Source of the DNA: a virus
Virus record (IMG/VR): IMGVR_UViG_3300023210_000146
Location: 1-30,141 of that record
Length of the DNA: 30,141 nt
Strand: one strand, 5' to 3'
In this document: positions 1,215 to 29,880 of the stretch, one piece after another
How the letters are laid out: each line of letters begins with the position of its first letter
Numbering within the stretch: position 1 is the first letter of the stretch
Translations under genes and position numbers: made by a program
Notes under the pieces: model-generated
Seen by the model: only the letters and a program-made list of their open reading frames with translations
Told to the model about the DNA's origin: nothing
Database searches by the model: none

Positions 1215-2093
1215 TTAAACCTTAAATTTTCCTAAAACCTTATAGAAATCAACATCTCTACACTTCCATTTGTGATGTGAGTCTTCTGTGCATAATCCCC
1301 AGTTTGTTGTGTATTGACACGGCTGGCAATCTATCTCAGATGTGACTACATCTACAGTTCTATGGAACTCTGGATGCCAATTCTTATAAACACTGGTTGC
1401 TGTAAAAATAACAACTCCCGATGTTTTCATTGCCGAAGCAAGATGATATGTCCCTGTATCGTTTGCTATGTAGTGTTTACTAGATTTAATAATACTAGCT
1501 GTTTCCTGCAACGATAACCCAGTTCTATTCTCTCCTGCAACGTATTCGTGTGGAGCACCTATACATGCTACACTCTTCCCACTAGCATGCAAATACTGTG
1601 CCAGTTGTTCCATATGTGGATATTTTTTCCGTTCCCATTGTTTTGGATTTACAAGGGAGCATCCGTTATGAATACAATAGTCATAGTATTCGTCTAGATC
1701 TAATAAGTCTCCTACTTCAACATCATATGGGTTATCCTCAGGTAATCCAAGACTAAGCTCTGGAATAATTCCAAGGTAAACATCAACTTCATTAATCGTA
1801 GGGCTATATATAAACTGATACCTACTACTGTTAACTCTTGGGATTTGGAATCTTTCCCCCCTATTACGATTGTCTTTTGTAGTTGCTAATTCTATCCTGT
1901 ATATATATTTACTGAAGTTATCCCCAGTGTGTAATGTAGCATACTTAGAAAATAACCATTCTGCATCTTTATCAGGAATACTACTTAGGTTTAGTATAGA
2001 AACCTCTATTCCGTTATAATCTAATGCTCTAACCAAAGGAAGGACTTGAACAACATTGCCCAAGCCCTCCCCTATACATAATAATGTTTTCAT
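1215..2093 (-). CDS. Glycosyltransferase family 9-like protein (GT-B fold)
   Basis: The 292-residue protein has the layout of heptosyltransferase-like GT9 enzymes, which transfer a sugar from a nucleotide donor. The N-terminus (GEGLGNVVQVLPLVRAL) is the usual glycine-rich first loop and helix. The C-terminal half carries the family signature NDTGTYHLASAM at residues 211-222 (Asp212, Thr213, Gly214, His217). It ends with a cysteine-rich stretch (Cys256, Cys259, Cys268, Cys278), as many GT9 proteins do. GAGGAG precedes the ATG. It lies just downstream of the tail-fibre stop codon but has its own -24/-12-like promoter in the 57-base gap. Possible targets are the fibre, phage DNA or host lipopolysaccharide; the sequence does not decide. 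Confidence 0.82.
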   Translation of the reverse strand: MKTLLCIGEGLGNVVQVLPLVRALDYNGIEVSILNLSSIPDKDAEWLFSKYATLHTGDNFSKYIYRIELATTKDNRNRGERFQIPRVNSSRYQFIYSPTINEVDVYLGIIPELSLGLPEDNPYDVEVGDLLDLDEYYDYCIHNGCSLVNPKQWERKKYPHMEQLAQYLHASGKSVACIGAPHEYVAGENRTGLSLQETASIIKSSKHYIANDTGTYHLASAMKTSGVVIFTATSVYKNWHPEFHRTVDVVTSEIDCQPCQYTTNWGLCTEDSHHKWKCRDVDFYKVLGKFKV

Positions 2094-2128: not shown

Positions 2129-2144
2129 AGCAAGTAATGTGCCA
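2129..2144 (-). promoter_or_regulatory. -24/-12 (sigma-54-like) promoter of the GT9-like gene
   Basis: On the minus strand the sequence is TGGCACATTACTTGCT. It matches TGGCACG-N4-TTGCW at 11 of 12 defined positions, with the required GG-N10-GC spacing. It lies in the short gap between the tail-fibre stop and the GT9-like ATG. Transcription would begin near 2118 and give a leader of about 25 nt that contains the ribosome site. Confidence 0.6.
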
Positions 2145-7121: not shown

Positions 7122-7232
7122 ATTGTTCTCCTTCTGGTAAGTAGCATAATACTACTTGGTTAATCTTCCCTCAGACGGCCCAGATTGGCTTCTAAGGAAC
7201 GTTTTTGTTAAATACGTATGGTGGCTAGTCTA

Positions 7233-7248
7233 CGGCACAATTATTGCT
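7233..7248 (+). promoter_or_regulatory. Candidate -24/-12 (sigma-54-like) promoter, distal copy
   Basis: CGGCACAATTATTGCT has the GG-N10-GC spacing and matches TGGCACG-N4-TTGCW at 10 of 12 defined positions. It lies 94 bases upstream of a better copy in the same direction, so it may be a second start or a decoy binding site. Confidence 0.35.
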
Positions 7249-7263
7249 CACAAACACTACCAT

Positions 7264-7291
7264 ACTATACTTAATATTAACACACTTTTAA
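7264..7291 (-). promoter_or_regulatory. Candidate sigma-70-type promoter for the tail-fibre operon
   Basis: On the minus strand TTAAAA and TATAGT are separated by 16 bases, matching the -35 and -10 consensus at 4 and 5 of 6 positions. The spacer contains the perfect palindrome TTAATATTAA (7271-7280), which could be an operator. In such AT-rich DNA a match of this quality is not rare. No -24/-12 site was found for this strand. Confidence 0.3.
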
Positions 7292-7326
7292 GATATTTTA
7301 TATATTTTTAAGAATAATATAACGAA

Positions 7327-7342
7327 TGGCATGGAACTTGCA
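7327..7342 (+). promoter_or_regulatory. -24/-12 (sigma-54-like) promoter of the plus-strand operon
   Basis: TGGCATGGAACTTGCA matches TGGCACG-N4-TTGCW at 11 of 12 defined positions with GG-N10-GC spacing. A 26-base stretch around it (7319-7344) is repeated with three changes at 13067-13092 before the recombinase gene. Transcription would start near 7353, between the two G6 runs, and give a leader of about 96 nt. Confidence 0.6.
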
Positions 7343-7448
7343 ACGGGGGGTTTGGGGGGTTCAGAAAAGATTTTAGATTTTCTTTTTTTTCCTTTTTTTT
7401 TCTTTTCCTGTGTATATAAATATTTTACTTAAGCTAAAGGATTTAATT

Positions 7449-7874
7449 ATGATTACAGATTATAAGCCAAATGTAGTAAGTGTTATAGAGGATTTGTTTG
7501 GATTCTGTGTTCATAGTGATTCATCTAATGGTTATTGTCCTACTTGTAAAACTCATCCTAAAACTATAGATCGTACCAGATTTAATGATTTAGATGATGG
7601 GATTACTATTAGGGATGGAATCTATGGTGGATACTATTTGCAAAAACTATTAATTTTCATAACTAATTATAGTGATGGACTATCTTTTAACAAACAAGGT
7701 GGTGCATGGCATGGTTATTGCATGGTAGTTGATAGTAAGATTCACTACCATGCTGGTACTAAGCAATCATTTTGCTATCAGGTATGTTGGTTAGCGGAAA
7801 TTTTGTACAGACACTTAAAATCACAAAATTCAATGTCTGATGAGGATGTTAGGAGATTAATTAATGAAAAATGA
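7449..7874 (+). CDS. Cysteine- and histidine-containing protein of unknown function
   Basis: The 141-residue protein is not recognised. A CPTC pair near residue 30, with further cysteines (FCVH, YCMV, CYQVC) and histidines (WHGY, HYHAG), would allow metal binding, but no known zinc-finger spacing is complete. AAGGA lies seven bases before the ATG at 7449. The frame stays open upstream to a GTG at 7410, which has no ribosome site and would start at the end of the pyrimidine tract, so I prefer 7449. It is the first gene after the divergent control region and overlaps the next gene by 11 bases, which makes it a likely early or regulated protein. Confidence 0.7.
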   Translation: MITDYKPNVVSVIEDLFGFCVHSDSSNGYCPTCKTHPKTIDRTRFNDLDDGITIRDGIYGGYYLQKLLIFITNYSDGLSFNKQGGAWHGYCMVVDSKIHYHAGTKQSFCYQVCWLAEILYRHLKSQNSMSDEDVRRLINEK

Positions 7875-8319
7875 AATTGTAGAACAACAATTATATCCAA
7901 TTATTAAGAAGAGTGCCATTCTAGTTGGTCCTACTGATCTAGGAGTATCTTCTTACCTAGCGGAAAACTTTAAAGATGTAACTTGGTTTACTGATTCTAA
8001 GATTTGTAAACATAAATATGAGCTTGTACCTATTGAGTCTGCGGTTACGTCTGCTATGAAGTGGAAACTTCACAATAAAAAAGTAGATTGTATCTTTTGT
8101 AATATACCTAATCAGTATGTTGATGCTTTTGTACAGCTTGGGCTTTGGATGCCAAACTTAAGAATTGGTGGGATCTTTGTGTTATCTGGACCTGACACAG
8201 TAACTATTATGGATGCTGTTGAGCGTTATATGCGTGGGATTATGTTTGTAAAATATGAAGTACAAGTAAACACACAGAATGGTCTTGTATTTATAAAGAA
8301 TAGGAATACCAATGAATAG
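7864..8319 (+). CDS. Divergent class I methyltransferase-like protein
   Basis: The 151-residue protein has the alternating strands and helices of a Rossmann fold. The first strand and loop are AILVGPTDLGVSSYLAENF. A second strand is VTWFTDSK. A strand VDCIFCNIP is followed by LGLWMPNLRIGGIFVLSG, which resembles the p.LrpGG.lv element of SAM-dependent methyltransferases of the Methyltransf_24 kind. The glycine-rich SAM loop is not canonical, so activity is uncertain and it may be a degenerate or non-methylating relative. AGGAG precedes the ATG. It lies directly before a GT-A-like glycosyltransferase with an 8-base overlap, which suggests that both act on the same sugar or base. Confidence 0.5.
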   Translation: MKNEIVEQQLYPIIKKSAILVGPTDLGVSSYLAENFKDVTWFTDSKICKHKYELVPIESAVTSAMKWKLHNKKVDCIFCNIPNQYVDAFVQLGLWMPNLRIGGIFVLSGPDTVTIMDAVERYMRGIMFVKYEVQVNTQNGLVFIKNRNTNE

Positions 8320-9007
8320 ATTATACATAACTACAAAAGACAGACCTACAGAACTCGCTATTCTTTGTAAGTCTTTGCTACATAGCGATATACAGAAATA
8401 TATCCATGAAGTTGTATTTATTGATGATGGGTCTGAGGATACTGTAACTATGCAACGAATTTTCTCCTCTATGTCCTACTCTTTATTGCAAAGGGGTATT
8501 AGGTCTAAATGGTTGCCACCTAAGGATGGTAGATCAGGTATTAACCAAAGTTTGAATATGGTTAGATATTTTAAAAGTGATCTAGTGTGGATACTTAATG
8601 GTGACATGATGGTTTTTAGTAACTATTTTGAACGATGTTATAACACACTTATGTTCGGGTTGAAGAAGTACGGGGAAGAGAAATCTTTAATTGTGTCTGG
8701 ATTTGACACACACCTCCACCCTCATACTGAAGAGTATAGGCTTAGTGGAACATCAAAAGTAGACAATGTTGGTGGTTGTTCAGAGGTTTTCAGATGGAAA
8801 GACCTAGATAGCTTCCTTGATTGTCTCTCAACTCCAGTAGGTATGAATAGAGGCTGGGACATGTATATGGGTAGAATCTTTGATAATATCCTTGTAACAA
8901 CACCTTCGTCTAGTCAGCATATTGGAATTTTAACAGGGCTGAATCAAGTATCTTTGGCTGGTTGGCCGGGAGCTTGGGCTAATGTGGAGGTTAATAATGG
9001 AAGATAA
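8312..9007 (+). CDS. Glycosyltransferase family 2-like protein (GT-A fold)
   Basis: The 231-residue protein has GT-A features. These are an N-terminal strand RLYITTKDRP, the nucleotide-sugar motif VVFIDDGS (Asp38, Asp39), GINQSLNMV after it, and LVWILNGDMM, where NGD (residues 96-98) takes the place of the DxD metal motif. Near the C-terminus SSSQHIGILTGLN matches the QHIG element often seen in phage and capsule GT2-like enzymes. It would transfer a sugar from a nucleotide donor; donor and acceptor are unknown. AGGAA lies five bases before the ATG. It overlaps the methyltransferase-like gene upstream, and the next gene starts within its last codons. Confidence 0.72.
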   Translation: MNRLYITTKDRPTELAILCKSLLHSDIQKYIHEVVFIDDGSEDTVTMQRIFSSMSYSLLQRGIRSKWLPPKDGRSGINQSLNMVRYFKSDLVWILNGDMMVFSNYFERCYNTLMFGLKKYGEEKSLIVSGFDTHLHPHTEEYRLSGTSKVDNVGGCSEVFRWKDLDSFLDCLSTPVGMNRGWDMYMGRIFDNILVTTPSSSQHIGILTGLNQVSLAGWPGAWANVEVNNGR

Positions 9008-9233
9008 CTTTTGGGATGAATCTGGATCGAAAGATCATAAGTTTGGGTCGGACTACCCTCCAGTAAAACTTTATGTAAGTATGATTGATATTTCTAAGTT
9101 GAATGTGAGTGTACCAGTAGTTAAGACCGTTATTTTGTCTGATGGCAAAGAGATTGATGTGGAGATGATCCTAGAAACTGATAGAGATACTTTTTCTAGA
9201 GACTTAAAGAGTGAGGTAATAGATGACAAGTAA
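8997..9233 (+). CDS. Small acidic protein of unknown function
   Basis: This 78-residue protein starts at the ATG at 8997, six bases after GGAGG. A longer frame begins at 8982 but lacks a ribosome site. It is acidic at both ends (MEDNFWDESGSKD and SEVIDDK) with a beta-rich middle (VKTVILSDGKEIDVEMIL). No family is recognised. It overlaps the glycosyltransferase upstream and the deoxyribonucleotidase downstream, both by about 11 bases, so it is part of the same operon. Confidence 0.65.
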   Translation: MEDNFWDESGSKDHKFGSDYPPVKLYVSMIDISKLNVSVPVVKTVILSDGKEIDVEMILETDRDTFSRDLKSEVIDDK

Positions 9234-9834
9234 TAAGGAAAGAATTGCGCTGGATATGGATGAGGTTGTGGCTGACCTAATGGGTTCTTGGATAGCATGG
9301 TGTAAGGTCGAATCGGGAATGGATGCTGATGAGGATATTGGTGAGATTCAATGGGATGTATCAAAATCATTCCCTGTGCTGTCCCAAAAAGAAGTATACA
9401 GCTACCTTAGCATTCCAAATGCCTTCTTGGAGTTGCCTGTAATTGAAGGTGCTATAGAGGGTGTTAAAGAGCTTAGTAAGTATTATGATATTACTTTTTT
9501 AACTGCGGCTAGGAGCAAAACTGCATTCTTTGAAAAAATCAACTGGGTAGGAAACCATTTTGGTAAAGAGTACAAGAATAAGGTTATTGCATGCTCATGT
9601 GGTAAAATGAAAAGTCTTATTAGTTCTTCCTTTGATATCATGGTTGACGACAACCCTGAGTTCATTAAGAATGCTGTTGGAGAGTGTACTACAATCCTCT
9701 TCACGGCAGACCATAACAAGGATCAAGATCTAGGATACATCAACTACAGAGTTGATAACTGGGAGGAGCTTGTAAAATGTCTGACAGAAAGACACCTGAA
9801 CAGAGAGCTAGAACGACAAGAAACTCAAAGATAG
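9223..9834 (+). CDS. 5'(3')-deoxyribonucleotidase-like HAD phosphatase
   Basis: The 203-residue protein has the HAD-superfamily motifs of the NT5C deoxyribonucleotidase family. Motif I is ALDMDEVVAD with the nucleophile Asp11 and the acid/base Asp13. Motif II is TFLTAAR with Thr94. A lysine-containing segment (CGKMKSL) gives motif III, and IMVDDNP with Asp142 and Asp143 gives motif IV. Such enzymes remove phosphate from deoxynucleoside monophosphates, often dUMP or dTMP. Here it may trim unwanted host nucleotides or balance the pool together with the thymidine kinase and dNMP kinase of this phage. GAGG lies six bases before the ATG. The last 58 bases overlap the HU-like gene in another frame. 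Confidence 0.8.
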   Translation: MTSNKERIALDMDEVVADLMGSWIAWCKVESGMDADEDIGEIQWDVSKSFPVLSQKEVYSYLSIPNAFLELPVIEGAIEGVKELSKYYDITFLTAARSKTAFFEKINWVGNHFGKEYKNKVIACSCGKMKSLISSSFDIMVDDNPEFIKNAVGECTTILFTADHNKDQDLGYINYRVDNWEELVKCLTERHLNRELERQETQR

Positions 9835-10205
9835 CAAGACTCAAGAACATGGGCAAGTTGGAATTCATCAGGTACGCTTACTATAGCTCTGATGAAAAGC
9901 CCTCAGTTTCCATGAGGAACATGAGTAATATTTTAGAGTGCATGACTGACATAATTTCTGATTGTATTGTAGATGGTGAGTTTGTTTATTTACGTGGATT
10001 TGGTACCTTTGTACCTATTGCGTATGCAAGTAAATACAATGAGTATGTTTACAACCCTTATACGCAGGAAACGATTGAGGGGAGGAACATCGTATACAAT
10101 ACACGGTTATTTAGATACTCAAAAGAATTGATTTGCAAAATAAATGGAGTTAAAGAATATGATACCTTTGAAGAATACTTTGGTAGTCCTTTACATACCG
10201 ACTAG
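9777..10205 (+). CDS. HU/IHF-family DNA-binding protein
   Basis: The 142-residue protein contains the HU/IHF core. A helical dimerisation part (NILECMTDIISDCIVDGE) is followed by the diagnostic VYLRGFGTFVPI at residues 70-81. NPYTQETIEGRN at 93-104 matches the tip of the DNA-binding arm with its intercalating proline. It is longer than host HU (about 90) because of a basic N-terminal extension of some 40 residues and a C-terminal tail. HU/IHF proteins bend DNA; a phage copy could organise replication, packaging or promoters, including the -24/-12-like ones. The ribosome site GGAGG is ten bases from the ATG. The gene overlaps its upstream neighbour by 58 bases. Confidence 0.75.
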   Translation: MSDRKTPEQRARTTRNSKIARLKNMGKLEFIRYAYYSSDEKPSVSMRNMSNILECMTDIISDCIVDGEFVYLRGFGTFVPIAYASKYNEYVYNPYTQETIEGRNIVYNTRLFRYSKELICKINGVKEYDTFEEYFGSPLHTD

Positions 10206-10875
10206 TCCTAAAGAGAGTGGTATAAGACTTTCGTTGATTAAAAACTACATGTGGGCTATTGGTAATTCCCCGTATACTAAGGTTGTATACGTTATGGATA
10301 GTATGTCTGTTAGACACAGGGCATTATTCAAAAAGTACATTTGCAATGATATAAAATTTCTAGGTTCCAAGACTATTAATTGGAACAAGGGTGGAAAGAT
10401 AGGATCATACGTAGGTGATGGTTCTGAGTGTCCAAGTGAGATGTATAACAAAGTAGCTGGCGCAGTAGACTTTGATTATGTTTTATTTGTTGAGCCTTAT
10501 ACATATTTATACCCTACATACCTAAGACTGGTATCAAACTTGCACCTTAAGGGTAAATGCAGTGCGGCGTTTGGGTCATCCGTGTTATTCGATTACACAA
10601 CTTTGATCAACTTTGATCTAAACTTATATGATTTTCAAATAGGATTAGACATTAAAGATTCCGGTGATACAAATAATTATTATGACCTGAACTCTGACGC
10701 TGGAGCACTTTACAGAACTTTATTGATAAACAGGGAAGTTTTTATGGAATCATCTAAATTTCCAATAGATTTTAATGGTAATTTCTTAAGATATGTTCAA
10801 CTTGTTAATAATGTGACTTCTGGTGTTTATTATATAAACGAGGTATCTTCAGCCCATATAAAGGGGATTTTATGA
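10159..10875 (+). CDS. GT-A-like glycosyltransferase-related protein, divergent
   Basis: The protein (about 238 residues) looks like a distant GT-A fold. It has an N-terminal strand LVVLYIPTSP, a strand with an acidic end KVVYVMDSMSV, a helix with YNKVAGAVDFDYVLFVEPYTYL where an EPY replaces the DxD, and later DLNSDAGALYRTLLINREVF. This order parallels family 2 enzymes, but the catalytic aspartates are not clearly kept, so it may be inactive or act differently. The ATG at 10159 has GGAG nine bases before it; an ATG at 10144 is possible. Its stop overlaps the thymidine kinase start (ATGA). Confidence 0.5.
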   Translation: MIPLKNTLVVLYIPTSPKESGIRLSLIKNYMWAIGNSPYTKVVYVMDSMSVRHRALFKKYICNDIKFLGSKTINWNKGGKIGSYVGDGSECPSEMYNKVAGAVDFDYVLFVEPYTYLYPTYLRLVSNLHLKGKCSAAFGSSVLFDYTTLINFDLNLYDFQIGLDIKDSGDTNNYYDLNSDAGALYRTLLINREVFMESSKFPIDFNGNFLRYVQLVNNVTSGVYYINEVSSAHIKGIL

Positions 10876-11429
10876 CCGTAGGTAAATTTAACTTAATAAC
10901 TGGACCGATGTTTAGTGGAAAAACAGAAGAGTTATTGAGAATCGCAAACTTATACAAAATAGCAAACAAAAAGATTTTAATTTGTAAACCCAAAAAAGAT
11001 GATAGGTATGGGGAGTCGGTTGTTTGTACACATTCAAATACTGCCTGTACGGCTAAAGACATAACGTATGTTAGGGATATATTCCCTGTTCTGGCTAATA
11101 GTTTCGATTCTTACGATGCTATCTTTATTGACGAATTTCAATTTCTTGAAGACGTAGATATGAAAGATATCTTCGTTTTAACAGAAGAGTACAAAGTAGA
11201 TGTTTACGTCTGTGGTCTTGTACTTGATTCCTTTAGGAAACCATTTGAGAGTATGGAAAAAATACTTCCATATGCTAGTGTCACAGAGTTTTGTGCTGTG
11301 TGCGACAATTGTGGTAACTTTGAAGGAAAATACACATTTAGACTTGGTAACTCATGTGATCAGGTTTATTTAGGTGGTAAAGATACTTACAATGCCTTAT
11401 GTAAGGATTGTTTTTTAAAACTCAGTTAA
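10872..11429 (+). CDS. tdk: Thymidine kinase (type II)
   Basis: The 185-residue protein is a standard type II thymidine kinase, which makes dTMP from thymidine and ATP. The P-loop GPMFSGKT lies at residues 11-18. The catalytic glutamate is Glu88 in AIFIDEFQF, and VCGLVLDSFRKPF is the conserved strand with the Arg-Lys-Pro-Phe motif. The lasso region has a zinc site formed by Cys144, Cys147, Cys177 and Cys180. Length agrees with the family (about 190). Translation is coupled to the upstream gene through ATGA, with AAAGGGG before the ATG. Thymidine salvage would support phage DNA synthesis from degraded host DNA. Confidence 0.96.
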   Translation: MTVGKFNLITGPMFSGKTEELLRIANLYKIANKKILICKPKKDDRYGESVVCTHSNTACTAKDITYVRDIFPVLANSFDSYDAIFIDEFQFLEDVDMKDIFVLTEEYKVDVYVCGLVLDSFRKPFESMEKILPYASVTEFCAVCDNCGNFEGKYTFRLGNSCDQVYLGGKDTYNALCKDCFLKLS

Positions 11430-11435
11430 GAAAGA

Positions 11436-11759
11436 ATGGTGCCCATGAAGAAGAAAACAGCAAAATTGCTACACTCCGAAGACGTTTCTCTCCCTTCATT
11501 TAATATCGAGATTAACGGACATGTTTACGGGTTTCATGGTATGTCAGAATTAGAAGGTGTGGGCGAAGCAATTCAGCACCACATTGATGATGATAAAGAA
11601 TTTACAGATTTTATTAATCTGTTTATGGAAAATGAGAAGGTGCGTAAATACTATGCACCCGCTATGTTATGTGGACTAGGTTACTTAGAGCGGGATGCAC
11701 TTTTGGATTTCCTAGTGGAGACTGTGGTTTCATCAAGTGAGAATCCTGATGGACCTTAA
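11436..11759 (+). CDS. Acidic helical protein of unknown function
   Basis: This 107-residue protein is not recognised. A basic N-terminus (MKKKTAKLL) is followed by a short beta segment (FNIEINGHVYGFHG) and acidic amphipathic helices (EGVGEAIQHHIDDDKEFTDF). No cysteine pairs or membrane segments are seen. The ATG at 11436 has only a weak AAGAAAGA before it; the ATG three codons on is equally possible. It lies six bases after the thymidine kinase stop and overlaps the next gene by about 11 bases. Confidence 0.65.
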   Translation: MVPMKKKTAKLLHSEDVSLPSFNIEINGHVYGFHGMSELEGVGEAIQHHIDDDKEFTDFINLFMENEKVRKYYAPAMLCGLGYLERDALLDFLVETVVSSSENPDGP

Positions 11760-12315
11760 ACTAAAAACACTAGACACCTTTAATGATCTGATAGGTAAGC
11801 TAGAAGTTCTAACGGATGTTGTGTTTTTGTCAGACCATCCTGCGTTTCACAATCTTAGAGTTATGCGTGAAGCAAGAGTTAAATTGTCTTTATTAGGTAA
11901 CTACCATTACTTTGGTAAGAACATCGTAGTTTCTTGTACTATAAAAGACACCAAGTATCTTCTGTTCTATTCTACCTTAACAGGTGTGTTTAGTACACGA
12001 AGAATATTTGATGATAAGATTTCTGATATTACTCTATATAAGAATGAAAAACTTAATATAGCAGTATTCTTAGGATGTGAGTTGGATACATTGTTAGACA
12101 CCAATTCTAGTGTTAATAAGTGGCTGGTATCAAATCAGAATTTATTAGAAGGACAGCGTGTTATAGTTATTATGGAGTGTGACCATAAAAACATTAGTAC
12201 TAAGTACTATAGCAAGAAGCTTAGAGATTTGTATCCAATGACCGAAGTGATTATGTACATTAACGATGACGACACCTTTATAGATAAAAATGAAAGAGCT
12301 TTTGAATTATGTTAA
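11749..12315 (+). CDS. Protein of unknown function
   Basis: The 188-residue protein is not recognised. It alternates strands and helices (YLLFYSTLTGVFSTRR, LNIAVFLGCELD, RVIVIMECDHKN, EVIMYINDDD), as an alpha/beta fold would. The strand pattern ending in DDD recalls nucleotide-binding folds, but no complete motif is present. I use the ATG at 11749; a GTG at 11737 extends it by four codons without a better ribosome site. It overlaps both neighbours by a few bases, as do most genes of this operon. Confidence 0.65.
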   Translation: MDLKLKTLDTFNDLIGKLEVLTDVVFLSDHPAFHNLRVMREARVKLSLLGNYHYFGKNIVVSCTIKDTKYLLFYSTLTGVFSTRRIFDDKISDITLYKNEKLNIAVFLGCELDTLLDTNSSVNKWLVSNQNLLEGQRVIVIMECDHKNISTKYYSKKLRDLYPMTEVIMYINDDDTFIDKNERAFELC

Positions 12316-12590
12316 CCTTTAATATTGTGGACATGGGAGATTACTATTTTAGATGTGTTTTAGGTGGGGAGTCATACTTTGACTTTAGTGTGGCTCAATT
12401 AGATATGTTTGGTTACGACCACTTCTTTGAGAACTTACAAGAGAGTGTTGGTAGCCCAATATATGATGTGAAAGAGGACAGGGCAATAGGTGACCTAGTT
12501 GCCGTTAGGCACTTAAAGGCAGAGAACTCTATTTGGATTCTATCTAGAAATGGAATCCGTGGGGAACTTTTTGTTAAGGAGTTATTATGA
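12309..12590 (+). CDS. Small protein of unknown function
   Basis: This 93-residue protein is not recognised. It has short strands at both ends (LTFNIVDMGDYYFRCVL and NSIWILSRNGIRGELFV) and an acidic middle (FGYDHFFENLQESVG). No membrane segment or metal site is seen. The ribosome site is weak; its start overlaps the previous stop by 7 bases, so translational coupling is likely. Its own stop overlaps the next start (ATGA). Confidence 0.62.
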   Translation: MLTFNIVDMGDYYFRCVLGGESYFDFSVAQLDMFGYDHFFENLQESVGSPIYDVKEDRAIGDLVAVRHLKAENSIWILSRNGIRGELFVKELL

Positions 12591-12790
12591 CTTGGTATTT
12601 GATGTTGAAACTTTTTATTCTATTCGGAGCAGTATCTTTCGTAAGTATGATATTTACGCTTACTGCTGTAAGAGTAGCAATAGAGCACTATTTTAAAACA
12701 AAAAACATAGACATTATGTCTACACTACTAGGAGGCTTGGACCTTGGCGAAAAAAGGGGAACACAAGAAGACAAAACCCGGAGTAAGTGA
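12587..12790 (+). CDS. Small single-pass membrane protein
   Basis: The 67-residue protein has one hydrophobic segment at about residues 5-29 (KLFILFGAVSFVSMIFTLTA) and a charged C-terminal tail (GEKRGTQEDKTRSK), which suggests N-out or signal-anchor topology. AAGGAG lies just before the ATG and ATGA couples it to the upstream gene. The function is not known; superinfection exclusion or an inner-membrane lysis accessory would fit the size, but no motif supports either. Its last 47 bases overlap the HNH gene in another frame. Confidence 0.65.
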   Translation: MTWYLMLKLFILFGAVSFVSMIFTLTAVRVAIEHYFKTKNIDIMSTLLGGLDLGEKRGTQEDKTRSK

Positions 12791-13070
12791 TAATGGCTTA
12801 TCACCTATGGGTAAATGGCGAAGAAAGAACAAGAAGAAGAATGATGCTTGGAGAAAGAGGTATGGTCAAACGGCTAAGTCTAACTCCAGAAATAAGGCTC
12901 GTAGACTTCTTGAAAAATCGACGAGAGCTAGGAAATGCGTTGGTTGTGGATCTGTTACTAAGCTTGAAGTCCACCACAAGGACAGCAATCCTATGAACAA
13001 CTCCCTTGGTAACCTCCAGTGGAGATGCACTAAATGCAATCCAAGAGCAAATAGAAAGCCTGGAAAATAA
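12744..13070 (+). CDS. HNH endonuclease, TTG start
   Basis: The 108-residue protein has a very basic N-terminal half and a compact HNH domain. A CVGC zinc knuckle at about residues 66-69 precedes VHHKDSNPMNNSLGNLQWRC, which holds the catalytic double histidine and the asparagines, then CTKC closes the zinc site. The usual last histidine after this pair is missing (CNPRANR instead of CHxxxH). No ATG is available near the start; a TTG at 12744 lies eight bases after an AGGAGG ribosome site and gives MAKKGEHKK. It may be a free-standing homing-type nuclease or a packaging-associated HNH protein; it ends the operon just before the recombinase promoter. Confidence 0.8.
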   Translation: MAKKGEHKKTKPGVSDNGLSPMGKWRRKNKKKNDAWRKRYGQTAKSNSRNKARRLLEKSTRARKCVGCGSVTKLEVHHKDSNPMNNSLGNLQWRCTKCNPRANRKPGK

Positions 13071-13074
13071 CAAA

Positions 13075-13090
13075 TGGCATGGTACTTGCA
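13075..13090 (+). promoter_or_regulatory. -24/-12 (sigma-54-like) promoter of the recombinase gene
   Basis: TGGCATGGTACTTGCA matches TGGCACG-N4-TTGCW at 11 of 12 defined positions with GG-N10-GC spacing. The 26 bases at 13067-13092 differ from 7319-7344 at only three positions. Transcription would begin near 13101, which gives a leader of about 26 nt with the GGAG ribosome site of the recombinase start at 13127. Confidence 0.6.
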
Positions 13091-13126
13091 TCTATTTATT
13101 AAACGTATTTAATGAGTGGAGTGCAG

Positions 13127-13912
13127 ATGCCGTATAAAAAAGAAGAATTTGTAGAAACGTTGACTGGACTAAGGCGCAGTGAGAATACTATTAAATGTTA
13201 CACAAGAGAGGTTGGATTCTTTTTCAAAAGATATGACTCTGTAACTCTTGAGAACATTAAAGACTTCGTACTGTACATGTCCAACAAGGGTAATAACCCT
13301 TCTAGCATTAGACGTTGTATATACGCCATTAAGACATATTGCAACATCTTTAGTATTACTATTAATTTTTCTTTGATATCACTTCCAAGACTAGTAAAGA
13401 GGGAAGCTTCTTACGTAACTGATTCTATATTTAGTGATGGTATTATTTCTATAATTGAAAGCAATACTCTTGAATATGATATGGAATCGGTTGTTGGTCT
13501 TTTTGATATATTATACAACACAGGACTTCGTGTCAACGAACTACTTAGTCTAGATATCAGTTCTTACAATACTGAATCTGGATGCTTGCGGGTTATAGGT
13601 AAAGGCGACAAAGAGCGATTTGTACCAGTTGGTGATTTGCTTGATGGAAACCTTTTACAGAACACAGACTTCTTTACCTTCTTAAACACGGTACACTATA
13701 CTACTGTGTTACTTTGGTGTAAGAAATTCTTTGGAAAAACTATAACACCACACAGTTTCAGACATGGATACACAACACGATTAGTAAATAGTGGAGTTGA
13801 GCCGTATGCTGTGCAGAAGGTTCTAGGTCATGCCTCGTATAATACTACATTAGGGTATTATCATATGAGTATGGATGAAGTAAACATGCAGGTAATAACT
13901 GCATTGAGTTAG
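13127..13912 (+). CDS. Tyrosine recombinase (XerC/D-like phage integrase family)
   Basis: The 261-residue protein has an N-terminal SAM-like core-binding domain (about residues 1-95, with RRSENTIKCYTREVGFFFKR) and a complete catalytic domain. The active-site residues are Arg135 (NTGLRVNELLSLD), the lysine in GKGDKERFVPV, His209 and Arg212 (PHSFRHGYTT), His235 (LGHASY) and the nucleophile Tyr244 (TLGYYH). The start at 13127 has GGAG five bases before it; the ATG at 13112 has none. The size is that of Xer-like enzymes rather than of large integrases. No repressor, excisionase or attachment site was found, so it may resolve genome multimers or invert a segment rather than integrate. It has its own promoter-like site. 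Confidence 0.9.
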   Translation: MPYKKEEFVETLTGLRRSENTIKCYTREVGFFFKRYDSVTLENIKDFVLYMSNKGNNPSSIRRCIYAIKTYCNIFSITINFSLISLPRLVKREASYVTDSIFSDGIISIIESNTLEYDMESVVGLFDILYNTGLRVNELLSLDISSYNTESGCLRVIGKGDKERFVPVGDLLDGNLLQNTDFFTFLNTVHYTTVLLWCKKFFGKTITPHSFRHGYTTRLVNSGVEPYAVQKVLGHASYNTTLGYYHMSMDEVNMQVITALS

Positions 13913-18887: not shown

Positions 18888-19436
18888 ATGATACAGATTA
18901 AAGGTACGATTATGGAGACTTACGATGATTCTTTGGCATACTTTGAGCCATGGATCAAGTCACTCACTAATATGATCCTGAAATCTCATCCTGACAAGGA
19001 GGACTGTAGACAAGAGCTTAGGCTTAAGTTGTGGTCACTTCATGAGAAGGATAACATGTATAACTCCACGTATGTAAGCACACGGTTGAAATGGGATACG
19101 ATTAATTTTATAAACAGGGACACAGGCTACAACTGGGATAAGAAATTTAAATCTTTTGAAGTCTGTGCATATACAGAGCTAGAACGCTTGTTTAGTGTCA
19201 AGGATTACGCTATTGAGAAGTCTTTGAATGTCGATATAGAAGTAGAAGATATGATACTTAAGGCAAAATCAAAACTTTCACAAAAGCAATACGAGGCACT
19301 CATTTTGTTCCTTAGCGGAGCAAATTCAAAAATGATTAGTAGCTTTTTGGGAACTAGGAATCGAAATATCACACGATATTACTTGTTGCTTGGTGAAGCT
19401 ATTAACATACTGCGGGAGGTAGCTATCTATGAGTAG
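18888..19436 (+). CDS. Sigma-70-family (ECF-like) RNA polymerase sigma factor
   Basis: The 182-residue protein has the two domains of a group 4 sigma factor. About residues 18-75 look like region 2 (KEDCRQELRLKLWSLHEK, then YVSTRLKWDTINFINRD). About residues 128-178 look like region 4: KLSQKQYEALILFLSG is followed by a helix-turn-helix, SKMISSFLGTRNRNITRYY, and ends in EAINILREV. It would redirect host RNA polymerase to phage promoters, probably those of the late genes that follow. AGGAG lies five bases before the ATG. It directly precedes the packaging genes. Some proteins of this build are instead non-sigma regulators, which cannot be excluded. Confidence 0.72.
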   Translation: MIQIKGTIMETYDDSLAYFEPWIKSLTNMILKSHPDKEDCRQELRLKLWSLHEKDNMYNSTYVSTRLKWDTINFINRDTGYNWDKKFKSFEVCAYTELERLFSVKDYAIEKSLNVDIEVEDMILKAKSKLSQKQYEALILFLSGANSKMISSFLGTRNRNITRYYLLLGEAINILREVAIYE

Positions 19437-20343
19437 TGTTTATAAAGAAGCTCCACTATATAACGTAACAGCAACAGAAATTAAAAAATATTATAACATT
19501 GTTTATGTGTATTTATTGGAGCTTTCTCGGAGTGGTAAGGTTAGTGTTAAAAACAAACGTGCCACTGATAATCCTGCTTGGGCCGCCTCTGAGATTTTGT
19601 ATATGGCGTTGTACGGTTACACAAAGAAGACTAAGTTTTCTAAGGCACAGAGGTATATTAAATGGAATAGACCTCCTAAGTCCCTTGATAAGAGAGTCCT
19701 TGCTTTAATGGGTAAGCCCTTTAGAGCAGACCAAGAGAAGAAGATTGAAAAGGTGAAACAGATTGCTCCTACCACTGCGGTTGAGGCTGTTTCCCAAGAG
19801 CATTTCTCTGATATACTTACTGAGACATTCATGACAAGTGATGACGAAGTAATTCACAGGATGCAGGTTTACATTGAGGATTTCGATTTACACTCCTCGG
19901 TGGACAAGGACCAACTTAAGAACCTTATCAAAACGCAGATGTTAATTGAATCTGCTCACGATAGGATGCTTAAGGGTGAACCAACAAATTTAGATATTAA
20001 ATCTTTATCCGATCAGGTTAAGACTTATACTACTATGCTTGGTTTATCAAAAAAGGATCGTGTAAACTTAGGTTCAGAGCGAAGTAAAGGCTCTGTAGCA
20101 GAACTTACTATCGTGTATGAGAATACACTTAATGAGTATGCTGGATTGGAAGAGGATTTCCTATTAGATGAGTTGAACATGCTTTTAGATAAGTATGAGA
20201 GAATTAACAATGATGGAGAACGTGAATTAAACGTAAAAGCTTTTAGAGTAATATCTGGTGGATTTACTATAGAAGAAGCTCTTGAAATGACAGGAAGAAA
20301 ACGTAAGTATGGCCTCAAAAAACCACATACATCTAACTCGTAA
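19429..20343 (+). CDS. Possible small terminase subunit
   Basis: This 304-residue protein is placed where a small terminase normally lies, directly before and overlapping the large terminase by 35 bases. It is helical and charged. The N-terminus (ATEIKKYYNIVYVYLLELSRSG) could be a DNA-binding helical bundle. A middle region (DKDQLKNLIKTQMLIESAHD, then LDIKSLSDQVKTYTTMLGLSKKDR) resembles the oligomerising part of some small terminases. No decisive motif is seen, so the call rests mainly on position and general appearance. The C-terminal FTIEEALEMTGRKRKYG could form a short HTH. GGGAGG precedes the start. Confidence 0.45.
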   Translation: MSSVYKEAPLYNVTATEIKKYYNIVYVYLLELSRSGKVSVKNKRATDNPAWAASEILYMALYGYTKKTKFSKAQRYIKWNRPPKSLDKRVLALMGKPFRADQEKKIEKVKQIAPTTAVEAVSQEHFSDILTETFMTSDDEVIHRMQVYIEDFDLHSSVDKDQLKNLIKTQMLIESAHDRMLKGEPTNLDIKSLSDQVKTYTTMLGLSKKDRVNLGSERSKGSVAELTIVYENTLNEYAGLEEDFLLDELNMLLDKYERINNDGERELNVKAFRVISGGFTIEEALEMTGRKRKYGLKKPHTSNS

Positions 20344-22207
20344 AGAAAAAATCTCTGGACTAAGAATGATTCACTTTTACAGGCGACACCCTGTACTAGC
20401 TGTAAGGGATCTGCTAGGTCTACCAATTAGTTCACCACATTTTAGACTTGCAATAAAGGCGGCTTGGTTTTGTGACCATGCCGTACTTTTGCTGTCTCGT
20501 GGTATGATGAAGTCTACTACGAATGCTATTATCTCTATTCTAAAGAGCCTACTGTACCCTAGTAGGACACAGCTTGTTCTTGGTCCACAGTTCCGTCAGG
20601 GTCGTATGATCTTTGAAGACGCTGGTATTGAGAAGATCTTGTTGGACACTATGGGTAACCAAGAGCATAGAAAAGGGTTTGGGAATCAATCCTGCAAGAA
20701 TCCAAAGAAGATTATTGATAAAGGTTCAAACGATCTCTGGAAAGTAAACTTTAAGAATGGATCTAAGATTGTGACCGGCCCTATGGGGAAGAAGGGTAAC
20801 TCTCTGCTTGGTACTAGAGCAAATGATATCCGTCTTGATGAAATGCGTGACTTCTCCAAGTATCAGGTTACAAAAGTTATCCATCCGTTTGCTAACGTTA
20901 TGTCTGATCCCTTTGGTAACAAAGAGGAGGAAGCAGGCACTAGTGTTGGTAATACTTTTATGTACGGCGGTACTATTAGATACACTGATGATTACTATTA
21001 TGAGATTATAGATGAATTTAGATCCTTTATGGAAGAAGATGCAGATTTAAAGAAATATGGTTTCTGCCCAAGACTCAGACGTGGTAAGTACTGCGTAGTT
21101 GAGTTTAACTACGAAGATGCCTTCACTCTCAAACAGGGAGTTAAGCGTCCTAAGCAGTATACAGTGGATGTTGTAGAAGATTTAATTAAAAAGCGTAAGA
21201 TAAAGTTCTATTTTCGTGTTAATATAGAAGAGATAGAGGCGGCTAAGTATTCAGATACTGTTAATACTGAGGATTGGAACGCTGAAAACAAGAATTTGCC
21301 TATTAAATTAGGTAGTAAAGAGTTCCCTTACCTGTTGCTCCAGTCTGTATCTGATGATATAGAATTTGAAGAGGCAGACATGCCCAATTCTAAGTACCTG
21401 TTCCCTGAGGCTTTGGACACGGCTAGAGAATTCTCAAAGAGTTCTGATTTTGCGGCACAGCTTGAGCCATTGAAGGAATGTGATGTTCCTACTGTTATGG
21501 GTGTTGATGTTGCTACTGAGTCCGATAAGTTCTCAATTACTATTATAAAACCGGGCAGTACTCAAGGAAATACCTTTGATCATATAATTTACGCATTTGC
21601 AAAAAGCCACATGAGTTATTCTGATATGGTAGCCAAGTTATACGAATGTATAGAAAAATACAATGTTGCTTGGGCCTTTATTGATAAACGAGGTGGTGGT
21701 TTCGCTATTCGTGACATGCTTAGGGAACCAGAAAACGAGAGTCAGCTTCCTTTCGTAGATGAAGTTAATGACGAAAAGGCTAAATTTGTTAAGAACAGAG
21801 TAGACATGATTCGTATGGTAAATGCCTCGGCTGAGTACAATACAACAATGTCAAATGCTGTCAAAGCCAGATTCCAGTCAAAGAAGTTACTTATGCCTAA
21901 GATTGTAAGTATTCACCCAGATCCAGAACTTGAGGAGATTTATCATGACTTATTAGCGTTACGTGGTCAGTTTGGTAAGATCAAGGCTAGATCTATTGGT
22001 GGTGGCTGGAAGAAATACTACGTACCAGAAACAAAATCAACTGACGAATCATTAGAGCGAGGGTACAAGGATTTATTTAGTTCTACACTGTACGCCATGA
22101 ACGCACTACTGGAATACACAGGTGCCATGGAAGTACTAGAAAAGAAAAAACGATTTGATAACATACCTGTACCCACTTTTGTAAAAAACGGTGCTTTTAG
22201 GAGATAA
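20309..22207 (+). CDS. terL: Terminase large subunit
   Basis: The 632-residue protein has an N-terminal packaging ATPase and a C-terminal nuclease. The Walker A is the variant SRGMMKST at residues 63-70, in the place of the usual SRGxGKT. Walker B is IRLDEM with Asp177 and Glu178. The RNase H-like nuclease begins with VMGVDVATESDKFS (Asp400). WAFIDKRGGG (Asp459) follows, then HDLLALRGQFGKIKA. It would translocate DNA into proheads at the portal and cut it. The length is typical of the larger terminases. The start at 20309 overlaps the upstream gene; AGGAAG lies rather far away, so translation is probably coupled. Confidence 0.93.
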   Translation: MASKNHIHLTRKEKISGLRMIHFYRRHPVLAVRDLLGLPISSPHFRLAIKAAWFCDHAVLLLSRGMMKSTTNAIISILKSLLYPSRTQLVLGPQFRQGRMIFEDAGIEKILLDTMGNQEHRKGFGNQSCKNPKKIIDKGSNDLWKVNFKNGSKIVTGPMGKKGNSLLGTRANDIRLDEMRDFSKYQVTKVIHPFANVMSDPFGNKEEEAGTSVGNTFMYGGTIRYTDDYYYEIIDEFRSFMEEDADLKKYGFCPRLRRGKYCVVEFNYEDAFTLKQGVKRPKQYTVDVVEDLIKKRKIKFYFRVNIEEIEAAKYSDTVNTEDWNAENKNLPIKLGSKEFPYLLLQSVSDDIEFEEADMPNSKYLFPEALDTAREFSKSSDFAAQLEPLKECDVPTVMGVDVATESDKFSITIIKPGSTQGNTFDHIIYAFAKSHMSYSDMVAKLYECIEKYNVAWAFIDKRGGGFAIRDMLREPENESQLPFVDEVNDEKAKFVKNRVDMIRMVNASAEYNTTMSNAVKARFQSKKLLMPKIVSIHPDPELEEIYHDLLALRGQFGKIKARSIGGGWKKYYVPETKSTDESLERGYKDLFSSTLYAMNALLEYTGAMEVLEKKKRFDNIPVPTFVKNGAFRR

Positions 22208-22208
22208 C

Positions 22209-22727
22209 ATGCAACCAACTACAATTCAAGAAATTATTTACTCTGACAACACAGTTGTTGACTCTACACGTACTACAGACGCAGGGTCGGCTACTTCCTA
22301 TTGGTTTTCACGAAACTTACCTGCTACTGGTAAGTCTATGCTGGATTCCACTGTAGGAGGCTATAACTGTGAGGTGTGTAAATACTATTTTGCTGGCCAT
22401 GGTGCTGGCAACGAAGTTACAAACTTCAAATATTACATAGGCAATAGAAACAGTATTGCTCAGGACATGACACATATGTTTTACGTAGAAGACGCATGGG
22501 TTAACCCTAGTTCGTGGACTGACTCTGCTATCTACAACGAAACTGGTGATTGGGGAGAGGCTCCTGTTGCGGCTCCAGGCTCCCCTAATGTTTCGACTAG
22601 TAGTGACTATTTGTCTACTGATGACCCTACAATGTCTCAATACATCTATTCTGGTGTTACTGTAGAGGCGGCTAAGGCTACTGGGTCTGCTACTTGGGAA
22701 GTAAGATTACTATATCAGTACACGTAA
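22209..22727 (+). CDS. Unknown protein between terminase and portal
   Basis: This 172-residue protein starts at the ATG at 22209, five bases after AGGAG, and directly follows the terminase stop. It is rich in Thr, Ser, Tyr and Asn, has a CEVCKYYFAGHG motif with two cysteines near residue 55, and ends in a strand VRLLYQYT. The composition suits a beta-rich structural protein of the virion. No family is recognised. Head-tail connector or decoration functions are possible from position only. Confidence 0.65.
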   Translation: MQPTTIQEIIYSDNTVVDSTRTTDAGSATSYWFSRNLPATGKSMLDSTVGGYNCEVCKYYFAGHGAGNEVTNFKYYIGNRNSIAQDMTHMFYVEDAWVNPSSWTDSAIYNETGDWGEAPVAAPGSPNVSTSSDYLSTDDPTMSQYIYSGVTVEAAKATGSATWEVRLLYQYT

Positions 22728-22736
22728 GGAGTGTTT

Positions 22737-23207
22737 ATGATGAAAAAATGGAATATTAAGAAATTTGGATCAAGTACCTCATATCAGGGTGATTGGGGAA
22801 CAGAACTCCTACCTCACGTCAATGGGATCGAGAATATCGAGTTTTTTGACTATATTAATAGGGAAGAGGGCGTACTTAATGACGGATTGAAAAATAATGT
22901 ATACATAAAGGTCCAAAGTGGTGTTATATATATAGGCAGTGTAGAGACTCATCTGGGTATCAACCTTGGAGGGTATGGCCATAAAATAGAAGAATGTGAA
23001 GCAAATCTTATTAAAATGTCACCGTATACAACGGCTGTTTTTAATATTTCTACCAAAAATAACGAAGATTTGGATTTTCACCTGCTTCTTGGCTACGAGA
23101 TTACTGCTGTAAAAGATAAAGTTTCAGGAGAAATGGCACCTTTGTCCTCTCCTGTTTATAAAGAATTCCTAGTATACTTTACTAGTGAAGGTGTTTTAAT
23201 TTGTTAG
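22737..23207 (+). CDS. Unknown protein between terminase and portal
   Basis: The 156-residue protein starts at the ATG at 22737, five bases after AAGGAG; the ATG directly after it is equally possible. It appears beta-rich (NNVYIKVQSGVIYIGSVE, EFLVYFTSEGVLIC), with an acidic middle. No cysteine pairs, membrane segment or known motif is seen. It lies between two structural genes and is likely co-transcribed; a virion or assembly role is a guess. Confidence 0.65.
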   Translation: MMKKWNIKKFGSSTSYQGDWGTELLPHVNGIENIEFFDYINREEGVLNDGLKNNVYIKVQSGVIYIGSVETHLGINLGGYGHKIEECEANLIKMSPYTTAVFNISTKNNEDLDFHLLLGYEITAVKDKVSGEMAPLSSPVYKEFLVYFTSEGVLIC

Positions 23208-23216
23208 GAGACTATT

Positions 23217-23507
23217 ATGATGGAAGCTGGAGATTTATTAGTTGGTAATTTGGCGATTGCTTCGGTTGTAATCAAGACACTGATCTCTGGATTAAGGCAG
23301 GCTGTGCAGACCTCTCCTTTGGTCACTAGGCTCACGGCTATTGGTCTTGGTATTGGTACCTCATTCATTATGGATGCTGGTATGTACACTTTAGGTGATG
23401 CCCCCACGGCTATTGCTGTTATTTTGAACAAGGTTATTGCTGGTATGTTTATTGGTGTGACTGCTATCGGTGTTAATGAGGCGGCCAAACAGATTGTGAA
23501 GAAATAA
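23217..23507 (+). CDS. Holin-like small membrane protein
   Basis: The 96-residue protein has about two or three hydrophobic segments: roughly residues 8-24, 38-57 (LTAIGLGIGTSFIMDAGMY) and 62-85 (TAIAVILNKVIAGMFIGVTA), and ends in a basic tail (KQIVKK). The VTRLTAIGLGIGT and AGMFIGVTAIGVNEAAK pattern resembles small phage holin-like proteins, which make membrane holes for endolysin release. It lies inside the head operon, away from the amidase, which is unusual. GGAG lies six bases before the ATG; its stop overlaps the portal start (TAATG). A structural or membrane-docking role cannot be excluded. Confidence 0.55.
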   Translation: MMEAGDLLVGNLAIASVVIKTLISGLRQAVQTSPLVTRLTAIGLGIGTSFIMDAGMYTLGDAPTAIAVILNKVIAGMFIGVTAIGVNEAAKQIVKK

Positions 23508-25747
23508 TGTCAGAACAAAACGGAAGAGATCTTGGCAACTCTCCGATAGTTCCTTTTGAAACATATGAAGAGTATGAAGAACTCTCTAATGAGGAATTGT
23601 CTAGTAGATATGCTAATGTCGTAAATGAGTTTGTGACTAAGGCAATGACATACAGTAGAGGCGTACAAACCTCTACTGATTATCTACTTAAAGAAGTCAA
23701 AGATTTAAAATCAGTGGGCGACTACGGTTACTCTAAATCACAGAATAAGAGCAAGGAAATAGCCCTTGCTCGTAAACTTGTTGAACATGATGAGATCTGT
23801 GGTACCGTTCTTGACAGGTTGATATCCTTTTGTGTCACAAAGGGTACAATCGAAAATGTAGAGGATAAAGAGCTACTAGTTCTTTTGAAGTCTTGGTCAG
23901 AGGGTATAGGTAATTTAGAGAGTTCTGGTAGTCCTAAAACTCATGTATATGTTAATAAAGCAGAAGGCATCAATGTTGTATTTGAACAAATCATTGAGCG
24001 ATTGCTTGTTGATGGGGATGCTATTATATCTGAAGCTTGGGCTTCTGATGTAGATCTTGATGAGGGAGAACACGTCCTTCCATATAAAATTAATATACAC
24101 GATACTTTACTAGCAGAAATTGATGAAATATATTTCAAGAAAACTGGACAGGAAAAGATAAGTTTGAATCTGGATTTAGTTACTGAAACTTTTGGTAAAT
24201 CTAACAAGGACAACAAGCTTAAATTATACAGTGAATCCGGCGACCCTTTCACTACTCACTTGAAACTAAGACCTAAAACATTTTCTGTTTGGGGCACATC
24301 TTACTTCAGGAGAGCCTTCCACCCAGTTGCAAACAAGAAGAAAATAGAAGCTCTAGAAACGAATACTATCGAAGGTCTTATTAATAGGCTGACTATTATT
24401 AAGGCGGGTAAGATAGATGGGGAGACAGAAGGTGGGATTGTGGCTCCGCACAGACTTGCTGTTCTAGAGAGAATGATTTCTCAGCCTAAGGTAAACAACT
24501 TTATCTTATGGCCGGGTGATGACATTTCAGTTGAGGATGTTAGTCCCGATTCTAATATCTTAACATACGATAACAAGTATGAATCTGCAAATGAACAACT
24601 ACTCGCCGCTCTTGGGTTCCCAAGGGTATTGATTGATGGTTCGGGTACTTCTACTGAGAACTGGCAGAAGTTCTTGGGTGTTATCGCTGATCTTGATAAG
24701 ATTCGTAATAACTATTTGATTCCTTGGATTAATAATGTTTTCAAGCAGATCGCAGAGAAGAATGGATACAAAAATGAGAAGCCTCGTTTTGTGTTTTCCA
24801 GGATTCGTCTGCATGATCTGAATGACCTTCTGAATGCTGTTAAGGTATTCTATGATAGAGGTCTAATGTCTGAATTGTCTGCTGTTACTAGTGGTGATCT
24901 TGATTATAATATTGAGTACGCCCGTAGGGCTGTAGAGTCCACAGAAGGTATTATAGCTGAGTATGGTGGCCCTGGGTTCCTTCCTTACGCTAAGAATACT
25001 GAAGATGGCAACAACAAAGAGGGTAACGACAGCCCAGAGAAAACAATTGATAAAGAGGATAAAGTTTCTGCCTCTATTCTAGACTCCGAAAGGAAATCTA
25101 TTATAGAAGTGTTTGAGGATTACCTGTTTGTGTTACACGATATGTACTCTAAGAAGATAGTCTCTGCTGTTAAAGCTAAAGACTACGACAGGGTAGACGA
25201 TATCATATTTGTATACTCTACACATATGAAACGTGATATTAAAGAGCAAATGCTTACTTTATTTAAAGATGAGTTGCAGGGTTACAAGATTGATGACTCT
25301 TTACTTGTAGCATCACAAACATGGCTTATTGGTTTTATTGATGGATTCTTTGAAGAGATTGGTAAAGAGGTTTCTCTTGTAATCGCTAACAACAAAGAAG
25401 ATAGAACTCCATTACTGCCTAACTTGGTAGCAGGGATTCTTACTGCAATGAAGACAAAACGATTACGCTTATACAGTTCATCTGTGTATGCGAAGGCCAG
25501 ATCCGCAGGAGAGCTTACAGTAATGAAGGCATCCGGCGGTGACCGTATACAGTGGAAGTCTGCTGAGACTGAGGCCACATGTGAGTACTGTTCTGCAATG
25601 CATAACAAGACTCTTAGTTTAGAAGCTTTCTTTGCGGATTTCCCACCGCATCCCAACTGTGAATGTTGGGGCAAGTCTACAAACGAAGGTATATCTGACG
25701 ATACACCCACTAAAGACACATCCAATTGGGGAAACATTACTAAATAA
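23507..25747 (+). CDS. Portal protein fused to a MuF-like head morphogenesis domain
   Basis: The 746-residue protein has a portal-like N-terminal two-thirds. It includes VDGDAIISEAWAS, FSVWGTSYFRRAFHP and ALGFPRVLIDGSGTSTENWQ, and a long helical stem near GVIADLDKIRNNYLIPWINN. The last 200 residues look like a MuF domain. They are helical, then have WKSAETEATCEYCSAMHN and PPHPNCECWG with Cys692, Cys695, His715, Cys718 and Cys720, the metal-site pattern of that family. Usually the two are separate neighbouring genes; here they are one frame with an acidic linker (NTEDGNNKEGNDSPEKTIDK). It would form the dodecameric DNA gate at one capsid vertex. The TAATG start is coupled to the upstream gene. 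Confidence 0.88.
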   Translation: MSEQNGRDLGNSPIVPFETYEEYEELSNEELSSRYANVVNEFVTKAMTYSRGVQTSTDYLLKEVKDLKSVGDYGYSKSQNKSKEIALARKLVEHDEICGTVLDRLISFCVTKGTIENVEDKELLVLLKSWSEGIGNLESSGSPKTHVYVNKAEGINVVFEQIIERLLVDGDAIISEAWASDVDLDEGEHVLPYKINIHDTLLAEIDEIYFKKTGQEKISLNLDLVTETFGKSNKDNKLKLYSESGDPFTTHLKLRPKTFSVWGTSYFRRAFHPVANKKKIEALETNTIEGLINRLTIIKAGKIDGETEGGIVAPHRLAVLERMISQPKVNNFILWPGDDISVEDVSPDSNILTYDNKYESANEQLLAALGFPRVLIDGSGTSTENWQKFLGVIADLDKIRNNYLIPWINNVFKQIAEKNGYKNEKPRFVFSRIRLHDLNDLLNAVKVFYDRGLMSELSAVTSGDLDYNIEYARRAVESTEGIIAEYGGPGFLPYAKNTEDGNNKEGNDSPEKTIDKEDKVSASILDSERKSIIEVFEDYLFVLHDMYSKKIVSAVKAKDYDRVDDIIFVYSTHMKRDIKEQMLTLFKDELQGYKIDDSLLVASQTWLIGFIDGFFEEIGKEVSLVIANNKEDRTPLLPNLVAGILTAMKTKRLRLYSSSVYAKARSAGELTVMKASGGDRIQWKSAETEATCEYCSAMHNKTLSLEAFFADFPPHPNCECWGKSTNEGISDDTPTKDTSNWGNITK

Positions 25748-25761
25748 CTTTAGGGGTTAAC

Positions 25762-25956
25762 ATGACCGATTTAGATAAGATGCTACAAGTTGGTATCCAA
25801 TTTCTCACTGAATTCGGCCTTCCTACTTTTCTTGTTATCTTTTTGCTAGTTTCTTTCCAGCGTAAGATTGACAAACTAATATGCTTAGTGGACAGGCTCA
25901 CAGGAGTTATAATGCAACTAACAAAAATGAGTAGGAGGGATTTCGATGATGAATGA
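25762..25956 (+). CDS. Small single-pass membrane protein, BhlA/UviB holin-like
   Basis: The 64-residue protein has one membrane segment at about residues 14-31 (GLPTFLVIFLLVSF), then a basic turn and an amphipathic helix (LICLVDRLTGVIMQLTKM). This layout resembles BhlA/UviB-type holin-like peptides, though such short matches are weak. GGGG lies before the ATG. It overlaps the start of the cupin gene by 11 bases, so both are made together and may meet in the membrane. Confidence 0.5.
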   Translation: MTDLDKMLQVGIQFLTEFGLPTFLVIFLLVSFQRKIDKLICLVDRLTGVIMQLTKMSRRDFDDE

Positions 25957-28283: not shown

Positions 28284-28306
28284 CAATAGATGATTGGAGA
28301 AATCAA

Positions 28307-28837: not shown

Positions 28838-28852
28838 TTAAGGAGGCTTATA

Positions 28853-29821: not shown

Positions 29822-29831
29822 GATAAATAAT

Positions 29832-29859
29832 GAGGGGGTGGGCAACTGCCCCCTCTTTA
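29832..29859 (+). terminator. Rho-independent terminator after the capsid gene
   Basis: GAGGGGG (29832-29838) pairs with CCCCCTC (29849-29855) around the loop TGGGCAACTG and is followed by TTTAA. A longer alternative with GGGC/GCCC is possible. It lies 10 bases after the capsid stop and before the ribosome site of the next gene, so it likely sets a high capsid-to-downstream ratio by partial termination. Confidence 0.75.
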
Positions 29860-29880
29860 AAAAGGATTAAGGAGAAAATA

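Follow-up and report, generated by a model that had tools for sequence, protein, structure and literature searches.

Predicted sigma-54 promoters recur in the non-structural arms of a small phage clade

Sequences matching the -24/-12 promoters of sigma-54 (RpoN) RNA polymerase are enriched far above chance in a virus fragment of 30,141 bases (IMG/VR record IMGVR_UViG_3300023210_000146, analysed in full and called the window below), and they recur in the other lineages of its clade. These sites are very probably genuine promoters, recognised by the sigma-54 polymerase of the host, dependent on a host activator and driving the non-structural arms of the genomes. The usual assumption is that phages begin on promoters of the sigma-70 type, and sigma-54 polymerase needs an activated AAA+ protein to open DNA. 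A phage relying on sigma-54 would couple its expression to a sensor of the host, and in some host states it could stay silent.

Results

Gene order and -24/-12 sites in the window

The window consists of two gene arms that diverge from an intergenic control region (Table 1). The leftward genes, from 7121, are two small genes, a tail fibre, a GT9-like gene and an amidase; the rightward genes, from 7449, encode a glycosyltransferase, a nucleotidase, a thymidine kinase, a recombinase, and SSB-like, PolA-like, sigma-like, terminase, portal-like and capsid-like proteins. Gene names without a family match were taken from the translation and gene order, and since genes were called with a simple script, gap boundaries are approximate. 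Three of the genes are glycosyltransferase-like (8312-9007, 1215-2093 and 14423-15319; one GT2-like, two GT9-like), which suggests sugar modification of a surface or of DNA.

A first-pass annotation had pointed out three sites, at 7327, 13075 and 2129, and had proposed them as sigma-54 promoters served by host RpoN. Their sequences, coordinates, strands and GG-N10-GC spacing were all confirmed: each has a single mismatch to TGGCACG-N4-TTGCW over 12 positions and lies in a gap between genes (7122-7448 for 7327, 13071-13126 for 13075, 2094-2150 for 2129), and the stretches 7319-7344 and 13067-13092 are identical at 23 of 26 bases. The leader lengths predicted there also hold: the GT9-like gene, which starts at 2093, would have about 25 nt, and the recombinase, which starts at 13127, 26 nt. 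From 7327 the predicted leader measures about 97 nt before the gene that starts at 7449. The sites carry GG and GC doublets set a constant 10 nt apart within a TGGCAYR-N4-TTGCW context, 5' of genes and co-directional with them, as expected of sigma-54 promoters. Just 3' of 7327, the leader (window 7344-7412) carries a G-rich stretch, CGGGGGGTTTGGGGGG, then a long pyrimidine tract.

Beyond these three, the window holds two sites of equal strength, 7707+ and 1588-, and a weaker one, 7233+. The match at 1588- may be a coding coincidence and that at 7707+ is probably coding-derived, judging from the codons they span; the ORF orthologous to 7449-7874 in the relative G001 holds a weaker site, at G001 34064. 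Because an intragenic match can arise from the codons by coincidence, the case rests on 2129, 7327 and 13075 (and 7233), together with their counterparts in relatives.

Table 1. Predicted promoters and associated features of the window.
Feature	Sequence	Position	Strand	Context
Predicted -24/-12 promoter	TGGCATGGAACTTGCA	7327..7342	+	Divergent region, 5' of rightward DNA-metabolism operon starting 7449
Weaker -24/-12 site	CGGCACAATTATTGCT	7233..7248	+	Within divergent region 7122-7448
Predicted -24/-12 promoter	TGGCATGGTACTTGCA	13075..13090	+	36 nt 5' of tyrosine recombinase start
Predicted -24/-12 promoter	TGGCACATTACTTGCT	2129..2144	-	35 nt 5' of GT9-like gene, leftward arm
Intragenic -24/-12 match	TGGCACAGTATTTGCA	1588..1603	-	Inside GT9 ORF; codons LAQYLH
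Intragenic -24/-12 match	TGGCATGGTTATTGCA	7707..7722	+	Inside ORF 7449-7874; reads WHGYC
Divergent intergenic control region		7122..7448		Between leftward and rightward gene arms
Tyrosine recombinase (PF00589)		13127..13912	+	3' of promoter 13075
GT9-like glycosyltransferase (PF01075)		1215..2093	-	3' of promoter 2129
ECF-like sigma-70-family factor, 182 aa		18888..19436	+	Conserved in all three lineages, just before terminase region
Terminase/portal/capsid block		19429..30141	+	No -24/-12 site at score >=13; likewise G001, G005

Enrichment over shuffled sequence and match to known sites

When scanned on both strands with a matrix hand-set after the published consensus, the window shows five sites scoring at least 17 (7327+, 7707+, 13075+, 1588- and 2129-), against a mean of 0.07 in dinucleotide shuffles, and none of 300 shuffles reaches five. 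Its non-coding gaps, about 0.7 kb, hold four sites scoring at least 14 where 0.003 are expected, and the presence there of three intergenic sites scoring at least 17 corresponds to p~5e-8. The sites are thus far above chance against shuffled sequence, and the earlier estimate of their rarity was conservative. Sigma-70 promoters showed no enrichment over shuffles.

The test was repeated with a data-derived matrix, built from 29 intergenic ChIP-chip sites of S. Typhimurium (PMC3844500). On this matrix the best five sites of the window reach 19.7-20.1 bits, and the Salmonella sites themselves have quartiles of 16.4, 18.4 and 19.8, so that the best window sites are in the range of top-quartile ChIP-identified sigma-54 sites. 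For the whole of the relative G005 at a loose threshold, the same matrix gave 10 sites against 2-10 at shifted spacings, an excess that is not clear.

Recurrence across the clade

A terminase search retrieved a small clade made of G001 (98.6 kb) and of G002, G003, G004 and G005 (up to 72.8 kb), all with a gene order that follows that of the window for most genes. G002, G004 and G005 have site sequences and order in common; they are seemingly one virus and were counted once, with G003 grouped with them too, which gives three independent lineages: the window, G001 (98.6 kb) and G005 (72.8 kb). Searches for further members with PolA, GT2 and capsid returned the same few contigs only, alignments of terminase and capsid against the genome collection, aimed at the host, found no relative, and a DNA search against named phages gave no match.

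Each of the three lineages carries -24/-12 sites. Pooled at a score of at least 13, they amount to 37 at the exact spacing, against 4-15 (about 8) at other spacings, N4 being the only spacer enriched. Fourteen of the 37 are intergenic, in genomes whose non-coding DNA represents 2.6-6%, versus at most one at other spacings; 31 sites point along transcription versus 3 against it; and none of the 37 falls in the structural blocks, which occupy 36-60% of each genome. An unbiased dyad search recovered the same motif: of 649,406 4-mer/gap/4-mer dyads, the top-ranking one in non-structural DNA is TGGC-N7-TTGC (18 occurrences versus 1.76 expected), and it is at background in structural DNA (1 versus 2.16 expected). 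Both the dyad count and the contrast between structural and non-structural DNA argue against composition, codon use or a circular choice of matrix. Taken singly, G001 and G005 display a weaker intergenic signal (p about 1e-5 at >=14, 0.007-0.017 at >=17). No enrichment was seen in 76 loci of other phages totalling 1.15 Mb (8 sites versus 9.9 at shifted spacings), nor in G006, a 46%-identical relative.

Sites also recur at corresponding places. The divergent region holds them in all three lineages (G001 33500+ and 33512-; G005 60391- and 60984+), as does the gap before the recombinase in two lineages, where G005 55113-, located 24 nt 5' of the orthologous recombinase, is the counterpart of 13075. 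Flanks differ in both cases, and the phage sites are not conserved beyond the -26 to -11 core, as in a promoter. Enrichment, exact spacing, strand and gap placement, together with recurrence in relatives, the unbiased dyad search and the signal-free background phages, strongly support the initial proposal of sigma-54 promoters read with host RpoN.

Several local features of the relatives deserve mention. At G001 33500-33527, the divergent region carries a pair of overlapping -24/-12 sites on opposite strands (TGGCACAGGACTTGCAAGTATTGTACCA), a possible bidirectional sigma-54 promoter. The end region of G001 (1-1000) contains repeated TTGCAC/GTTGCA elements, mostly in non-coding DNA. The amidase has a gene for a small membrane protein nearby in both relatives (G005 62244-62465 and G001 26408-26620); the two products are similar and, by their location, holin-like, and perfect -24/-12 matches (G005 62378, G001 26474) lie inside their conserved GTxLA codons. 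A repeat common to these two loci, AAAATGCNGACATTTT, was considered as an enhancer and set aside, as it corresponds to the start of the homologous small ORF.

Sigma factors and activator

No RpoN gene was found in the window or its relatives, and no match to the AAA+ sigma-54 activator domain PF00158 at E<=0.1 in six records, including those of 98.6 and 72.8 kb, although records may be incomplete; HTH_8 gave nothing above cut-off in the records searched. The lack of an activator gene, initially reported for the window, therefore extends to the relatives, and host factors are implied, since neither RpoN nor an AAA+ activator was detected in any relative. It is rather improbable that these sigma-54 promoters respond to a divergent activator encoded by the phage, which would make expression independent of host signals: many small proteins are uncharacterised and the window record is a fragment, but the domain searches above point the other way. 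A search for palindromes and dyads in the 255 bp 5' of 19 sites, aimed at enhancers, revealed nothing convincing that was shared; upstream activating sequences have no common consensus (PMC3844500).

The product of 18888-19436 has a weak profile match to phrog_1740 (E 5e-4) and no Pfam match. The top Foldseek matches of its structural model (pLDDT 65) are ECF sigma factors, weak ones with E of at least 0.016. This ECF-like protein, which may have the sigma2-sigma4 architecture, is a candidate late-gene sigma factor.

Alternative explanations

The motif might instead be the operator or binding site of a phage DNA-binding protein, such as a repressor or a replication initiator, and merely look like a sigma-54 site. 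Recurrence within one phage speaks for this, and the face-to-face overlap of G001 33500+ and 33512- creates a partial palindrome. We nevertheless consider this quite unlikely, as the motif agrees with sigma-54 sites position for position, down to the C/T and A/G changes tolerated in the outer part of the -24 element, is directional with transcription (31:3), and has several copies tens of nucleotides 5' of start codons and no conserved symmetric extension. Matches produced by chance or by codons in AT-rich DNA could account for single sites inside ORFs (7707, 1588 and the G005 62378/G001 26474 pair, the last two in a GTxLA stretch), but are a very unlikely source of the whole: for the intergenic set this origin is refuted by shuffles and controls, intergenic sites alone being far above shuffles, with no signal at shifted spacings, in the structural half of genomes or in 1.15 Mb of other phages.

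Discussion

Under the promoter reading, host sigma-54 polymerase would read the predicted -24/-12 promoters of the non-structural arms, the rightward target being the DNA-metabolism and recombination operon and the leftward target the glycosyltransferase/amidase arm. A host enhancer-binding protein would license these operons, because closed complexes of sigma-54 polymerase depend on an AAA+ activator, and none was detected in the phages. The protein in question may respond to nutritional or stress signals, as initially proposed. Transcription of the structural block would fall to a different holoenzyme, plausibly one containing the ECF-like sigma of the phage. Such a two-stage programme, with host sigma-54 for non-structural genes and a phage sigma for virion genes, would fit the site-free structural block. 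Based on the promoter-like sequences, the clade probably ties part of its gene expression to a host sigma-54 regulator that hardly any known phage uses. A bolder extension, possible but on balance doubtful, is that its entire non-structural programme is gated by host sigma-54 together with a host AAA+ activator, infection proceeding or stalling with host physiology, before the clade's own ECF-like sigma takes over virion production.

The -24/-12 signature may serve to find other such phages and to narrow the hosts to RpoN-bearing bacteria. In P. aeruginosa, RpoN is also required for type IV pili, which commonly act as phage receptors, so rpoN dependence alone would not prove promoter use. YuA is a cultured precedent, and a clade-wide, near-consensus and spatially partitioned set of sites makes the idea testable.

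A search of mostly open-access literature identified no other phage with genome-wide sigma-54 promoters. One source presents phage use of sigma-54 as rare and the development of YuA as strictly dependent on host sigma-54 (PMC5053324). Pseudomonas phage YuA (Yuavirus) has annotated -24/-12 promoters, of high activity; its record NC_010116 lists three, all among structural genes (38-47 kb), which is the reverse of the situation here, where sites are absent from the structural block. YuA sites also fit the consensus poorly (best score 5.1 on the hand-set matrix) and were unusable as a positive control, whereas those of the clade are near-consensus and more numerous. Other systems involve phage-host interplay via RpoN, as proposed here, but in neither are sigma-54 promoters located on phage genes: the Xp10 protein P7 inhibits sigma-54 polymerase, and the prophage Gifsy-1 triggers a host sigma-54 operon through RtcR (PMC5053324, PMC9879122). 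The nearest named phages by capsid and terminase (24-27% identity), Bacillus Slash-type phages and Microcystis phage MaeS, have one TGGC-N7-TTGC each in about 80 kb and no sigma-54 signature, unlike this clade. The S. Typhimurium sigma-54 regulon (PMC3844500) shares with the phage sites its TGGCAY-N5-TTGCW core, spacing and score range, but site density is far higher in the phage, with five sites scoring at least 17 in 30 kb.
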